Assembly: GCF_000424625.1 (NCBI RefSeq)
Contig: NZ_AUKG01000001.1
Location: 744,001-808,000 of the forward strand
DNA: 64,000 nucleotides
Direction of reading: 5' to 3'
DNA from: Conexibacter woesei Iso977N
GTDB taxonomy: Bacteria; Actinomycetota; Thermoleophilia; Solirubrobacterales; Solirubrobacteraceae
Under the pieces are notes generated by a model. The model was not told the origin of the DNA. It saw only the letters and a program-made list of their open reading frames with translations, and made no database searches. Each line of letters begins with the position of its first letter. The first letter of the stretch is position 1. The translations under genes and the position numbers were made by a program. This document shows positions 17 to 55,047 of this stretch, in pieces.

Positions 17-781
17 ATGCCCCGCTTCGTCGACCTGTCAGCGCCGATCGTCGCCTCCCCGGCCGAGCTGCCGGACATCCTGCGCACGGACGTCGAGTTC
101 TCCGATCATGCGGAGGGCGCGAGGACGATCGAGACGATGCTCGGCGTCGGGCCGGAGCTGCTGCGCGACGGCGAGGGCTGGGCGGTCGAGACGTTCACGC
201 GGTTCGGGACGCACAACTCGACGCACGTCGATGCGCCGTACCACTACAACTCGACGATCGGCGGCGCGCCCGCCAAGACGATCGACCAGCTGCCGCTGGA
301 GTGGTTCTACGGGCCGGGCGTCGTGCTCGACATGTCGCACAAGGCCGACGGCGAGGCGATGACGGTGCAGGACGCGGAGGCCGCGCTCGATGCTGCGGGG
401 CATGTCCTGTCGCCGGGCGACATCGTCCTGGTCCGGACCGACCGTGACGAGTTCCTGGATGCCCTGGACTACATGACCCGCGGCCCGGGCGTGACCGTCG
501 AGGCGACCCGCTGGCTGCACGCCGCGGGCGTGCGCGTGATGGGCATCGACGCCTGGGGCTGGGACGCGCCGCTGCACCTCCAGGCCGCGGCGGCCAAGGA
601 GTCCGGCGAGGCCGGGATCTTCTGGGCCGCGCACCAGGCCGACCTCGAGTACTGCCAGATCGAACGGCTCGCGAACCTGCGCGAGCTGCCGCCGAACGGG
701 TTCACCATCTCGGTCTTCCCGCTGCGGCTCGTCGGGGGATCGGCCGCGCCGGCGCGCGCGGTTGCCATCATCCCCGGCTGA
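17..781 (+). CDS. Cyclase family protein (kynurenine formamidase-like)
   Basis: A 254-residue protein of the cyclase/metal-dependent hydrolase superfamily (PF04199), whose members hydrolyse amides or lactones, for example N-formylkynurenine. The family metal-binding signature HxxxHxDxxxH is complete at residues 66-76 (H66, H70, D72, H76). There is no signal peptide, so it should be cytoplasmic. The length is a little above the roughly 210 residues of KynB. The substrate cannot be assigned: no tryptophan-catabolism genes are nearby, and the next gene is a glycosidase. The ATG at 17 lies close to the window edge, so any upstream operon partner is not visible. Confidence 0.8.
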   Translation: MPRFVDLSAPIVASPAELPDILRTDVEFSDHAEGARTIETMLGVGPELLRDGEGWAVETFTRFGTHNSTHVDAPYHYNSTIGGAPAKTIDQLPLEWFYGPGVVLDMSHKADGEAMTVQDAEAALDAAGHVLSPGDIVLVRTDRDEFLDALDYMTRGPGVTVEATRWLHAAGVRVMGIDAWGWDAPLHLQAAAAKESGEAGIFWAAHQADLEYCQIERLANLRELPPNGFTISVFPLRLVGGSAAPARAVAIIPG

Positions 782-788
782 GCCCTGG

Positions 789-2678
789 ATGAAGAGCACC
801 GGCCTGAAGCTGACCCTCGTGGCCACGTTGATCGTGGCGGTGCTGGTCGGCGGGGCCGCGGTGGTGTTCGGGGCGGGCACGCAGAAGCCGAGTGGCGACG
901 CGTTCTCCGCGCCGATGGCGTCCGGGGGGCCGGCCGGGCGGCTGGCGCTGAGCGGCCCGTGGGTCGAGTCCGACGACCCCGCCGACGTCGGCGTCGAGTC
1001 CGGGTGGGCGAGCGGCCAGTTCACCGGCAGGTTGGTGGACATCCCCTACGTGCCCAACGCCGCGCACGTGACCGGCGCGGCGGGCGTCGCCGCCTACAGG
1101 GGCGGGATCGCGTGGTACCGGACGACGCTGACCGCGCCGCGCACGGGGTCCTACGCGCTGCGCTTCGAGTCGGTCCACCACATCGCGACCGTGTGGCTCG
1201 ACGGGCGCGAGATCGCGACGCACACCGGCGCGTACCTGCCGTTCGAGGTCGGGCTGCGGCTGCGCGAGGGCGTCGCGCACACGCTCGTCGTCCGCGCCGA
1301 CTTCCGCTGTCCGACGTGCCAGAAGCGCGCGGGCTGGCACCGCACGTGGTTCAACTACGGCGGCATCAACCGCGAGGTGACGCTGCGCCCGCTGGCGCGC
1401 AGCGAGGTCGAGGCGCCCGCGGTCCGCACGCGGCTCTACCGCGGCGCGGCGATCGTGGACGTCAGCACGACGGTCGACAACCGCGCCTCGTCGACCCGCT
1501 CGCTCCAGGCGCGCGGCACCCTCGGCCGTCGCGGCTCCGCCACGGCGTTCGCCTTCCCGCGCGTCCGGATCGCGCCGCACGAGAGCAAGCGCGTGACGAC
1601 GCGCGTCGTGATCAAGAACCCGCACTTGTGGCAGCCCGGCGCGCCCAACCTGTACGCCTTGCACGTCGGCGTCGCCGGCGAGGGGTCGTGGGACGACTCG
1701 GTCGGCCTGCGCGAGGTCACCCGCTCCGGGCGCGAGCTGCTGCTCAACGGCAGGCGCCTGCGCCTGCACGGCGCGTCGATCAACGAGGACGCCGACGGCC
1801 ACGGCGACGGCCTGACCGCCGCCGACATGGACCGCGTCGTGCGCGAGCTGAAGGCGATCGGCGCCAACGCGACGCGCGCGCAGCACGCGCTGTCGCCGCC
1901 GCTCTTGGAGCGCCTGGACCGCGCCGGGATCCTCGTGTGGCAGGGCGTCGGACCGGTCGACGCGCCCGGCGCCTGGACCTCCGGCACCCCGGAGCTCGCC
2001 CACGCCGCGCGCGAGCGCGTCCGGACCAGCGTGCGCCAGGAGCAGCTGCACCCGAGCGTCATCGCCTGGAACCTCGCCAACGAGATCGCCGGCAACGGCC
2101 ACGACGCGTCGCAGGTCGCCTACATCTCCGACATGGCGCGCGAGCTGCACCGCGAGGACCCGGGCCGGATCGTCGCCGTCGACCTCTGGGGCGCCCACCC
2201 ACCGAGGGTCCCGGGCGAGATCTACAAGAACGTCGATGCCGTCGCGCTGACCAACTACATCGGCTGGTACGAGGGCGCCGACGAGTCCCGCGCGCAGATC
2301 GCCTCGCGCCTCCACTCGACCGCGCTGGGCTTCACGCGCCTGTTCCCGAAGAAGGTCCTGCTCGTCTCCGAGTTCGGGGCGGAGGCCAACGCCGCCAACG
2401 CAGCCGAAGCACCCGGCGGCTACGCCTACCAGTCCTGGCTGCTGCGCCGCCACATCGCGACCTACCGCGCCCTCCCCCAGCTCTCGGGCATGTTGGTGTG
2501 GAACCTCCAGGACTTCGGCGTGGCCCCCACCTTCGCGGGCGGGTCCATCAGGTCGGTGATCCCGGCCATCGTGGTCGAACGCGGCCTCAACACCAAAGGC
2601 CTCTTCACCTACAACGGCACGGCGAAACCCGCCGCCGCCGCGGTCGCCCGCGCGTTCGCAGCACTCCCCGGGGGGTGA
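789..2678 (+). CDS. Glycoside hydrolase family 2 (beta-galactosidase/glucuronidase type), membrane-anchored
   Basis: A 629-residue GH2 protein: N-terminal signal-anchor (about residues 7-28, Leu/Val/Ala-rich), jelly-roll sugar-binding domain, Ig-like domain and C-terminal TIM barrel. The acid/base glutamate is in the NE dyad of NLANEIAG (E432) and the nucleophile in SEFGAE (E528), so both catalytic residues are present. I chose ATG 789, which gives a clean signal segment, over an in-frame ATG at 762 that would overlap the upstream gene. It probably cleaves beta-linked glycans outside the membrane; the sugar is unknown. The gene ends 8 bp before a palindromic repeat. Confidence 0.85.
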   Translation: MKSTGLKLTLVATLIVAVLVGGAAVVFGAGTQKPSGDAFSAPMASGGPAGRLALSGPWVESDDPADVGVESGWASGQFTGRLVDIPYVPNAAHVTGAAGVAAYRGGIAWYRTTLTAPRTGSYALRFESVHHIATVWLDGREIATHTGAYLPFEVGLRLREGVAHTLVVRADFRCPTCQKRAGWHRTWFNYGGINREVTLRPLARSEVEAPAVRTRLYRGAAIVDVSTTVDNRASSTRSLQARGTLGRRGSATAFAFPRVRIAPHESKRVTTRVVIKNPHLWQPGAPNLYALHVGVAGEGSWDDSVGLREVTRSGRELLLNGRRLRLHGASINEDADGHGDGLTAADMDRVVRELKAIGANATRAQHALSPPLLERLDRAGILVWQGVGPVDAPGAWTSGTPELAHAARERVRTSVRQEQLHPSVIAWNLANEIAGNGHDASQVAYISDMARELHREDPGRIVAVDLWGAHPPRVPGEIYKNVDAVALTNYIGWYEGADESRAQIASRLHSTALGFTRLFPKKVLLVSEFGAEANAANAAEAPGGYAYQSWLLRRHIATYRALPQLSGMLVWNLQDFGVAPTFAGGSIRSVIPAIVVERGLNTKGLFTYNGTAKPAAAAVARAFAALPGG

Positions 2679-2686
2679 GTTTCGGG

Positions 2687-2731
2687 TCCAAGTCGCCTAG
2701 ACCCCAATATGTGGGGGTCAAACGACTTGGA
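2687..2731. repeat. Palindromic repeat family 1, copy 1
   Basis: A 45-bp near-perfect palindrome. The outer arms TCCAAGTCG (2687-2695) and CGACTTGGA (2723-2731) enclose an inner stem GACCCC/GGGGTC around an AT-rich loop AATATGTG. The reverse complement closely matches copy 2 at 3617-3657, so the DUF559 gene between them is flanked by inverted copies. The annotated ATG of that gene (2709) lies inside the loop. It could act as a terminator for the GH2 gene, a start-region hairpin or a REP-like element. Confidence 0.8.
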
Positions 2732-3614
2732 ACATCGGTTGGCGGAGTTCGCCACCAACAACTACGGCGTCGCGTCGCGCGAGGAGCTCCGGGCGCTGGG
2801 GTTCGACGACAGGGCGATCGAGCACCGGCTCGCGGTGGGACGCCTCCAGCGCCTGCATCGCGGCGTCTACGCCGTCGGTCACGCGCACCTAGGCCGCGAG
2901 GGCCGGTGGCGCGCCGCGGTGCTGGCGTGCGGTGAGGGAGCGGTGCTGAGCCATTGGGACGCGGCCGCATTGCACGACCTGATGCCGTCGCGCGGCGCGC
3001 GGATCCACGTGGTGCGGCCGAGCAACGCGGGGCGCTCGCCCGATCCGGCGCGCATCGCGCTCCACCGCGTTGGCACCTTCCACCCCTGGGAGGGACGGCT
3101 CAGCGACGGGATACCGGCGACCACGGTGGCGCGGACGCTTCTGGACCTCGCGCCCAAGCTGCGACCTCGCGCGCTGGAGGACCTCATCGCCCGGGCGGAT
3201 CGCCTGCAGGTCTTCGACCTCCGCGCGCTCCACCGCTCCCTCCAGGCTCACCCACGCCAGCCCGGGGCGCCCCGGCTCCGGTCCGTCGTCGATGCCCTGT
3301 CCCACACCCCGGCCGCGGATCTGCGCAGCCCGCTGGAGGTCCGGCTCCTACAACTTTGCGACGACTACAACCTGCCGACGCCCCGAGCGAACACGACCAT
3401 CGCCGGCCTCCTCGTCGACTTCCACTGGCCGGGCACCAACCTCATCGTCGAGACCGACGGCTACGCCTACCACTCGACACCCTCGTCCTTCGAGCGCGAT
3501 CGCGAACGCGATCAGCGCCTCACCCTCGCCGGCTACACCGTCGTCCGGTTCACCTACAACCAGGTGACACGGACGCCGGAAGCGGTGGCGGCCCGCCTCC
3601 GGCGTCTCGTGTGA
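2709..3614 (+). CDS. AbiEi-antitoxin-like winged helix plus DUF559 endonuclease-like domain
   Basis: A 301-residue protein. The N-terminal 60 residues (GVASREELRALG... RLHRGVYAVGH) match the AbiEi-type antitoxin winged helix. The C-terminal 90 or so residues carry a DUF559/Vsr-like PD-(D/E)XK fold with LLVDFHWPGTNLIVETDGYAYH and a downstream RDRERDQRL helix. The function of this common actinobacterial family is unknown; nuclease activity is inferred from the fold. ATG 2709 sits within a palindromic repeat, so in-frame TTG codons at 2727 or 2739 are alternative starts. There is no partner toxin gene. Inverted palindromes flank the gene on both sides, which suggests it moves or duplicates as a unit. 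Confidence 0.7.
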   Translation: MWGSNDLEHRLAEFATNNYGVASREELRALGFDDRAIEHRLAVGRLQRLHRGVYAVGHAHLGREGRWRAAVLACGEGAVLSHWDAAALHDLMPSRGARIHVVRPSNAGRSPDPARIALHRVGTFHPWEGRLSDGIPATTVARTLLDLAPKLRPRALEDLIARADRLQVFDLRALHRSLQAHPRQPGAPRLRSVVDALSHTPAADLRSPLEVRLLQLCDDYNLPTPRANTTIAGLLVDFHWPGTNLIVETDGYAYHSTPSSFERDRERDQRLTLAGYTVVRFTYNQVTRTPEAVAARLRRLV

Positions 3615-3616
3615 TG

Positions 3617-3657
3617 CAAGTCGTCTAACCCCCACATATTGGGGGCCAGGCGACTTG
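3617..3657. repeat. Palindromic repeat family 1, copy 2
   Basis: A hairpin-forming palindrome with outer arms CAAGTCG (3617-3623) and CGACTTG (3651-3657) and an inner CCCCC/GGGGG stem (3629-3633 and 3641-3645) around ACATATT. It lies between the convergent DUF559 and fumarase genes, where it could serve both as a bidirectional terminator. Its loop is the reverse complement of copy 1. Confidence 0.8.
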
Positions 3658-3665
3658 GACCGCCG

Positions 3666-4997
3666 CTAGGCCTGGTTGCCGGCGGCGATCTTGCGGAGGT
3701 TGATGGTCTCGTCGTAGAGCTTGGCGTCGACGCCCTCTTCGAGGGCGACCTCGCGCAGGGGGCGGCCGGAGTCGGCGGCCTTCTTGACGATGACCGCGGC
3801 CTTGTCGTAGCCGATGGCGCCGTTGAGCGCCGTGGCCGTGGCGAGGGTCGCCTCGGCTGAGGCCTTGGTGCCGGCCCTGTTGACCGTGATGCCGTCCACG
3901 CACTTCTCGGCGAACGCCACCGACGTGGTGCTCAACAGGTGGATCGACTGCAGCAGGTTGCGCGCGATCAGCGGGATGCGCACGTTGAGCTCGAACTGGC
4001 CCTGCATGCCGCCGATCGTGATCGCGGTGTCGTTGCCGATCACCTGCGCGCTGACCTGGAGCACGACCTCCGGCAGGACCGGGTTGACCTTGCCCGGCAT
4101 GATCGACGAGCCCTTCTGCAGCTCGGGCAGGAAGATCTCGCCGATGCCCGCGCGCGGGCCGGAGCCCATCAGCGCGATGTCCTGCGCGATCTTGGTGAGC
4201 GAGACCGCGACGACCTTCAGCGCGCCGCTCAGCTCGACCAAGGCATCGCGGTTGGCCTGCGCCTCGAACGGATCGGCCGGCGGCGCGATCAGCCTCAGCT
4301 TCGAGTCCTTCGCCAGGCGCTTGCGCACCTCGGCGGCGAACCTCGGGTGCGTGTTCAGGCCCGTGCCCGTCGCGGTGCCGCCGAGCGGGATCTGGCCGAC
4401 GTGCACCAGCGCGCTGTTGATCCGCTCCTGGCCCAGCCGGATCTGCACGGCGTAGCCGGCGAACTCGGCGCCGAGCGTGACCGGCACCGCGTCCATCAGG
4501 TGCGTGCGGCCGGACTTCACGACGTCCTTGAACCTCCTGGCCTTGCGGTCGAACGACCGCTCCAACTGCCTCAGCGCCGGCAGCAGCGTGTTGGTCGCCT
4601 CGTCCAGCGCGGCAAGGTGGACGGCGCTCGGGAACACGTCGTTGGACGACTGGCCGAAGTTCACATGGTCATTGGGATGCGCGCGACCGTCGGTCAGCGC
4701 GCTGATGACCTCGTTGGTGTTCATGTTCGACGACGTGCCCGAGCCGGTCTGGAAGACGTCGATCGGGAACTGCGCGTCGTGCTCGCCGGCCGCGATCGCC
4801 TCGCCGGCCGCGGCGATCTCCGCAGCGAGCTTCTTGTCGAGGTTGCCGAGGTCGGCGTTGACCAGGGCGGCGGTGCCCTTGATCCGGCCGAGCCAGTGGA
4901 TGACCGCGAGCGGGACGGTCTCACCGGAGATCGGGAAGTTGTCGACGGCCTTCTTGGTCTCGCCGCCGTACAGCGTCTTCTTCTTCACAGGGGGCAT
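3666..4997 (-). CDS. fumC: Class II fumarate hydratase
   Basis: A 443-residue enzyme that hydrates fumarate to L-malate in the TCA cycle; cytoplasmic homotetramer. The superfamily signature GSSIMPGKVNP is at residues 296-306, and the substrate loop GSGTSSNMN is at 85-93. Length and motif spacing fit class II FumC rather than aspartase or argininosuccinate lyase, though the fumarase/aspartase split is always close. ATG 4997 is preceded by a TAGGCT -10 box (5011-5006) with 8 nt between and no Shine-Dalgarno, so the mRNA is probably leaderless. It is monocistronic and convergent with the DUF559 gene. Confidence 0.9.
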   Translation of the reverse strand: MPPVKKKTLYGGETKKAVDNFPISGETVPLAVIHWLGRIKGTAALVNADLGNLDKKLAAEIAAAGEAIAAGEHDAQFPIDVFQTGSGTSSNMNTNEVISALTDGRAHPNDHVNFGQSSNDVFPSAVHLAALDEATNTLLPALRQLERSFDRKARRFKDVVKSGRTHLMDAVPVTLGAEFAGYAVQIRLGQERINSALVHVGQIPLGGTATGTGLNTHPRFAAEVRKRLAKDSKLRLIAPPADPFEAQANRDALVELSGALKVVAVSLTKIAQDIALMGSGPRAGIGEIFLPELQKGSSIMPGKVNPVLPEVVLQVSAQVIGNDTAITIGGMQGQFELNVRIPLIARNLLQSIHLLSTTSVAFAEKCVDGITVNRAGTKASAEATLATATALNGAIGYDKAAVIVKKAADSGRPLREVALEEGVDAKLYDETINLRKIAAGNQA

Positions 4998-54981: not shown

Positions 54982-54989
54982 GCGCGAGG

Positions 54990-55034
54990 TGCAAGTCGTC
55001 TGGCCCCCACATAGTGGGGGTGAGACGACTTGCA
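54990..55034. repeat. Palindromic repeat family 1, copy 3
   Basis: Perfect outer arms TGCAAGTCGTCT (54990-55001) and AGACGACTTGCA (55023-55034); inner CCCCCAC/GTGGGGG (55004-55010 and 55014-55020) around ATA. It lies between the convergent lipoprotein and amidase genes. It is the most symmetrical copy, with a two-tier cruciform-like structure, and matches copies at 2687 and 3617. Confidence 0.82.
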
Positions 55035-55047
55035 CCGGCCGAGCGGC

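Follow-up and report, generated by a model that had tools for sequence, protein, structure and literature searches.

A nuclease gene between inverted palindromes in Conexibacter woesei and its dispersed palindrome family: a candidate REP/RAYT-like partnership with an unrelated enzyme

Why should a nuclease gene lie between two inverted copies of a palindrome, one of them spanning its start codon, while further copies of that palindrome stand alone elsewhere in the genome? The question is raised by a 64,000-nucleotide stretch of Conexibacter woesei Iso977N (contig NZ_AUKG01000001.1, positions 744,001 to 808,000; hereafter the window, numbered from its first letter), in which a gene of 301 aa (2709-3614, plus strand) encodes a fusion of AbiEi and DUF559. 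The first palindrome copy occupies 2685-2734 on the plus strand, so that the gene's ATG at 2709 falls in its loop, and the second occupies 3612-3661 on the minus strand. We read this arrangement, with a probability of about 0.6, as a partnership like that of repetitive extragenic palindromes (REPs) and REP-associated tyrosine transposases (RAYTs), built on an unrelated enzyme that joins an AbiEi winged helix to an EDxHD-like nuclease. A preliminary description of the sequence had noted the same palindrome in opposite orientation around a single gene, and this is borne out: the copies form an inverted pair with 50-nt arms, 88% complementary and separated by 877 nt, and their loops, CAATATGTG and CACATATTG in copies 1 and 2 respectively, are as described and absent from the rest of the window. 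Hairpin folding gave z -3.7 for copy 1 and z -5.0 for copy 2, and the motif CAAGTCGNCT has 5 matches in the window against 0.41 expected.

First, the palindrome is dispersed over the window's own genome (G000, 5.7 Mb). The palindrome measures about 49 bp, and its core pattern, with up to 3 mismatches allowed, gave 19 matches representing 18 sites in G000, compared with 0 for the reversed pattern. Two of the sites flank the AbiEi-DUF559 gene and 16 are solo. The preliminary description had placed a third, solo copy at 54990; it was confirmed at 54988-55036 (no strand assigned), between two convergent genes and with a stronger hairpin than either flanking copy (z -8.2), but it is one of 16 solo sites genome-wide. 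By the approximate gene calls of a codon-usage caller, which also underlie the solo counts in genome G027 and the control-gene counts below, nine solos lie between convergent genes, four between co-directional genes and three inside genes; divergent junctions hold none. Since 13 of the 16 are intergenic, the family is dispersed and mainly extragenic, as REPs accompanying RAYTs are. Convergent junctions hold 9 of these 13 and make up 70 of 456 junctions in a 524-kb sample of G000 (binomial p 2e-5 when junctions are counted, 1e-3 when intergenic bases are). A T run was found at neither of the two gene-flanking copies, which were the copies covered by the scan, and GTAG stands at the end of 0 of the 18 aligned copies.

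Palindromes inside genes were seen at L006, L011, L013 (near 1499-1543) and L139 (near 1495-1545), all in genes with Pfam support, whose types are urea-amidolyase-like, chelatase-like, major facilitator superfamily and thiamine pyrophosphate (TPP) enzyme. Those of L006 and L013 translate in frame as linkers, for example PSRLTPTYRGPDDLD, and recall Rickettsia palindromic elements. In the urea-amidolyase-like gene the palindrome coincides with a linker that is hypervariable among relatives, so the comparison of its insertion junction is weak; in the TPP-enzyme gene the linker is longer than in relatives from the PDB.

Second, the pairing of gene and palindrome recurs among homologues in the order. 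The set comprised 111 homologous genes, those fetched among the matches listed (two with shortened flanks), and each was scored by matching its 5' flank against its reverse-complemented 3' flank. An inverted flanking pair scored at least 42 in 18 of the 111 genes and at least 35 in 20, whereas among 12,210 mismatched flank pairs only 9 and 37 reached these scores. Among 455 genes in 524 kb of G000, 42 was reached by the DUF559 gene alone, that is, by 0 of the 454 others (Fisher p 6e-14 against 18/111), and 35 by five, the DUF559 gene included. The second DUF559 gene of G000, L021 (C1:996403-997260), has a different flanking pair of its own, with a score of 47.

At the 5' side, 48 of the 111 genes have a hairpin scoring at least 22 in the interval from about 100 nt upstream to 40 nt downstream of the extrapolated start. 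The hairpin centres lie at a median of 6 nt upstream of it (interquartile range -9 to -3), a few being further upstream, and 21 of the 48 have an ATG in frame close to the loop. Even the genes without a paired flank have 5' hairpins scoring 24 or more in 32 of 91 cases, compared with 7 of 455 controls, while their 3' side is hardly enriched (5/91 against 21/455 at 24, and 4/91 against 4/455 at 32). The palindrome sequences vary from gene to gene. That the flanked genes form one clade was ruled out by 15 changes of label on the protein tree, although shuffled labels needed 18.6 changes on average and 1 of 500 shuffles needed as few as 15, so that the clustering exceeds chance. Three close paralogues of genome G006 (L075, L076 and L077), in one clade at 100% support, carry different flanking palindromes, as if the palindrome switched faster than the protein.

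Third, each gene has its own palindrome family, as is best seen in genome G027, of which 1.2 Mb, about 23%, was sampled. The search for palindrome families covered 81 genomes (G000 and 80 relatives), and the L071 palindrome occurs at 10 sites in G027 and at 0 in the other 80. Within the G027 sample, the palindromes of all eight AbiEi-DUF559 genes listed for that genome have dispersed matches, with solos numbering 6 for L071, 6 for L082, 6 for L085, 8 for L086, 1 for L084, 5 for L087, 1 for L083 and 2 for L042; these 35 were counted after four weak or short P85d and P87 matches, one P84 match (identical to a P71 site) and one weak P83 match had been dropped. L042, L083, L084 and L087 have a 5' palindrome without a paired flank at score 35, yet copies of it lie elsewhere. 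At a fixed, stricter threshold, all 8 own queries matched the G027 sample (37 sites, including copies at the genes themselves), compared with 0 of the 43 foreign queries, and three other genomes (864 kb) held no match to the eight G027 palindromes. The cross-genome query set held the palindromes of 51 of the 111 genes, with a hairpin score of at least 22, or at least 14 in four sampled genomes; it left aside four genes scoring below 14, both G000 genes among them. Gene and palindrome are paired, and specifically so, in the genomes tested. As a further observation, L082, L085 and L086 show a second loop class, CTCAG/CTGAG-like, alongside the TATG-like class.

The G027 data also bear on two other explanations. 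Ordinary bidirectional terminators, homogenised by chance or by gene conversion, would explain the strong hairpins and the convergent bias, which is marked in G000 and recurs in G027 (11 of 32 intergenic solos against 17% of intergenic bases, p 0.012). The 35 solos of G027, 32 of them intergenic, are however spread over 17 co-directional, 11 convergent and 4 divergent junctions and 3 genes, and terminators do not account for copies inside genes or between divergent genes, for flanking copies without a T run, or for families that are each restricted to the genome of the cognate gene. A general terminator, which the preliminary description had set against its own reading, thus fits poorly; as the principal explanation it was rejected on the missing T run and the contrast of 8/8 own with 0/43 foreign matches, and we consider it very improbable. 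Alternatively, another mobile enzyme, such as a Y1/RAYT or insertion sequence (IS) transposase, might spread the palindromes, the nuclease gene merely lying between copies. One Y1_Tnp gene is present in each of G000 and the relative G001, but a genome-wide search for the Y1 family found no match in G027 at E 0.001, and G027 nevertheless holds eight DUF559-matched families. A RAYT acting in trans is unlikely in G027 because of this missing Y1 match. With no GTAG tag at the palindrome ends and an association with DUF559 far above that of control genes, we regard another enzyme as improbable.

Of three families tested, two show parallel change of the two palindrome arms. For L087 (parent and five copies), pairing holds at 98.5% of arm positions, and 7 of the 22 pairs have changed on both sides in at least one copy; 0 of 500 shuffles reached the observed values for pairing, covariation score or double changes per cell. 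For L071 no shuffle reached the pairing or the covariation score, while 71 of 500 reached the number of pairs with double changes.

Is it the gene or the repeat that moves? The preliminary description had proposed a mobile unit of gene plus repeats. What is supported is an association of REP-like dispersed palindromes, whose solos are species-specific, with a nuclease gene where other systems have a RAYT; what is not supported is recent movement of the whole unit, since the gene adjoins the fumarase gene (3666-4997, minus strand, in the window) in three congeners as well. Of 30 fumarase loci examined, some of which stop at contig ends, a homologue adjoins fumarase in G000, G001, G002 and G005 and does not in 26, including G003 and G006, so that synteny in all relatives, which had been named as evidence against mobility, was found in part. 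In G004, whose contig at the fumarase locus stops 8 bases past the gene, the homologue adjoins a fumarase fragment on another contig.

The palindromes behave differently. The G000 family is confined to G000 among the 81 genomes, save one doubtful 3-mismatch match in G001. G001 is syntenic with the window region, most blocks being 78-90% identical, and lacks the palindrome at all four solo sites compared (736779, 799005, 808565 and 854963 on contig 1; at 808565 the left flank alone was alignable). G002 lacks it at three of these four, the three displayed, and at the junction of the solo at 54988-55036 it is missing in both. Solo copies are thus present in one species and missing in another at syntenic junctions. 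The gene that G000 and G001 share has palindromes differing in both arms (CAAGTCG...CCCC in G000, CGTGTCG...GTGTCCC in G001), and G001 has its own dispersed family matching its own flanks, with 12 solos and a flank; of the 24 places found, 13 were assigned to the family by eye, one belongs to another DUF559 gene as its 5' palindrome and 10 were set aside. G004 has 4 sites of its own genus-type family and a flank, and G005 one further site and a flank, with two further unsure palindromes left uncounted. From these sequence comparisons, the repeats look mobile, rather than the gene unit. Two pairs of G001 solos have identical cores (C1:1376274 and 1385463; C1:5007086 and 5204975) and are possibly recent copies or portions of larger duplications.

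What kind of enzyme could be the partner of these repeats? The AbiEi-like winged helix and PD-(D/E)XK-like domain proposed in the preliminary description were both recovered, PF13338 and PF04480 scoring above the Pfam cut-off. The AbiEi_4 winged helix covers residues 10-56 (2736-2876, plus strand), with PADLOC AbiEi models reaching residue 183, and the DUF559 match covers residues 228-297 (3390-3599, plus strand); NCBIfam gave no match. Across the 111 proteins, E210 (just N-terminal of the DUF559 match), D237, D250 and H255 are invariant (111/111), E248 and D264 are present in 110 and R280 in 109. A profile of 28 proteins found two solved relatives below E 0.001, namely 3r3p (E 4e-6), a mobile intron protein that is the catalytic domain of the homing endonuclease I-Bth0305I, and 3hrl, which is endonuclease-like. 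Judged from this match and from conserved E, D, H and D residues of the types in the EDxHD motif, the nuclease domain appears EDxHD-like (PD-(D/E)XK/Vsr superfamily). The structure model was poor (mean predicted local distance difference test score 58, 3 sequences); Foldseek ranked 3r3p first (E 1.9e-3), 3hrl 8th, AbiEi (6y8q) 11th and Vsr 15th, with no match at E 0.001 and with large mitoribosomal proteins, probably spurious, within the top seven.

The PADLOC matches would also suit a fused toxin-antitoxin or defence gene, with AbiEi as antitoxin, the nuclease as toxin and the palindromes as titration or guard sites. The gene is free-standing between two complete genes, not in an intron, intein or fractured gene: upstream lies a glycosyl hydrolase family 2 gene (762-2678, plus strand) and on the other side fumarase, and neither is an AbiEii nucleotidyltransferase partner. 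Homologues number up to at least 15 per genome among the matches listed, and the gene is retained at one site in congeners, so we give this explanation very little credence. A plasmid search returned three weak relatives, one of which was inspected.

The start palindrome is probably an operator, by analogy with AbiEi: according to PMC3985639, the AbiEi protein of S. agalactiae represses itself, and its promoter contains the 23 bp-N3-23 bp inverted repeat to which it binds. Because our palindromes are of the same size class as this repeat, they are plausible sites for the AbiEi module. The same comparison favours a wholly regulatory explanation, in which an AbiEi-type regulator uses the palindromes as its operators and as binding sites dispersed over the genome, and selection for regulation, transcript ends or chromosome organisation maintains them, with no spreading by the nuclease. 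The promoter of AbiEi itself holds the 49-bp palindrome that it binds (PMC3985639), and the 48 start hairpins occur also where a paired 3' copy was not found. Such a regulator, however, does not sit well with solos of which none is divergent in G000 (13 convergent or co-directional, 3 in genes) and 4 of 35 in G027, nor with eight unrelated families in G027, one per gene, and would have no use for a conserved nuclease site. We consider it unlikely.

Under the REP/RAYT-like reading, we infer that the nuclease spreads the palindromes. A host-resident AbiEi-nuclease gene would have its own palindrome of about 45-55 bp, over its start, often inverted after its stop and dispersed extragenically. The AbiEi module would bind the palindrome as a dimer, both at its own start for autoregulation and at the solos, and the nuclease module would nick or cut DNA. 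Host break repair might then copy the palindrome to new sites, mainly past gene ends, where insertion is tolerated, and repeats and gene would co-evolve while the gene passes vertically. For comparison, the EDxHD enzyme I-Bth0305I, according to PMC3943268, forms a dimer on a target site nearly 60 bp long.

Several points weigh against this reading. A hydrolytic nuclease without strand-transfer chemistry cannot itself join strands, so the spreading requires a repair route, which is a guess, and a chemistry unlike that of RAYTs. Movement, binding and cleavage are predicted from sequence. No clear target duplication was seen in the alignments with G001, a distant relative, and a palindrome missing in a relative could reflect loss. 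At score 35, 91 of the 111 genes are without a paired flank, and the gene control was drawn from one genome, G000. The L021 palindrome has no further copies in 524 kb of G000, and when five own queries were run against 160 kb of G001 and 180 kb of G002, the only matches were the two genes' own copies; neither G002 nor G003 has a clear genus-type palindrome family. Covariation is absent from the G000 family, with 491 of 500 shuffles as high, and H255 falls just short of invariance when 28 of the proteins are aligned separately.

Bacterial genomes commonly contain short palindromic repeats. Of the kinds that PMC3116915 and PMC3733652 describe, a mover is proposed only for the GTAG kind, which is tied to Y1 transposases. 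Among the records listed in the literature searched, which left most subscription papers outside, we found no description of the association of palindromes with AbiEi-DUF559 genes. A link between private palindrome families and a protein resembling homing endonucleases would give the uncharacterised AbiEi-DUF559 gene family a function, would offer a candidate mover for other orphan palindromes and would supply naturally matched sets of protein and DNA partner with which to study how specificity changes. We tentatively propose, at somewhat less than even odds, that AbiEi-EDxHD nucleases are a second, independent REP-type solution, in which each nuclease spreads its own palindrome by break-induced copying instead of transposition, the palindrome and the DNA-binding domain co-evolve and a genome can hold many pairs that do not cross-react.

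Among known systems, miniature inverted-repeat transposable elements and IS elements have terminal inverted repeats with target-site duplication; here there is an inverted pair, and no clear duplication in the alignments with the distant G001. Like AbiEi, the antitoxin of the type IV AbiE system as presented in the available text, the protein has an N-terminal winged helix and the region following it, and a palindrome of a size similar to the AbiEi operator; unlike AbiE, it has no adjacent AbiEii partner and has gained a C-terminal nuclease. EDxHD homing endonucleases share the catalytic domain match and the conserved E, D, H and D residues but reside in introns or inteins, whereas our gene lies outside both and its product also carries an AbiEi module. 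According to PMC3733652, short palindromes at gene 3' ends and in genes are likewise found as CGTC-tagged REPs and Rickettsia palindromic elements; compared by description, they have an unpaired CGTC tag and stems of 8-9 bp, while the arms here are about 20 bp. In the same text CGTC-tagged REPs are reported without a dedicated transposase, and related nucleases might be their missing partner. DUF559 is found in Neisseria gonorrhoeae (3hrl) and Caulobacter vibrioides, lineages reported there to have CGTC-tagged REPs; a link between the two is speculation.

The closest likeness is to REPs, their doublets (REPINs) and RAYTs. The available text of PMC3116915 and PMC3733652 describes several private families, a largely vertical gene at the species level and a proposed co-evolution, and that of PMC3733652 a preference of REPs for convergent and co-directional gene ends, with some inside genes. 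Our system shares with them the palindromes beside the gene, the dispersed extragenic copies mainly at gene ends, the private families, the largely vertical gene and the proposed co-evolution, and it differs in an enzyme that is not Y1/HUH, in the absence of a GTAG tag, in a longer palindrome with the start codon within it and in the fewer copies found. Since the enzyme is not Y1 and the GTAG tag is absent, we do not file it as a RAYT system. In conclusion, what appears new here, within the literature searched, is the enzyme and its pairing with the palindromes, while the functional kind, REP-like, is already known.
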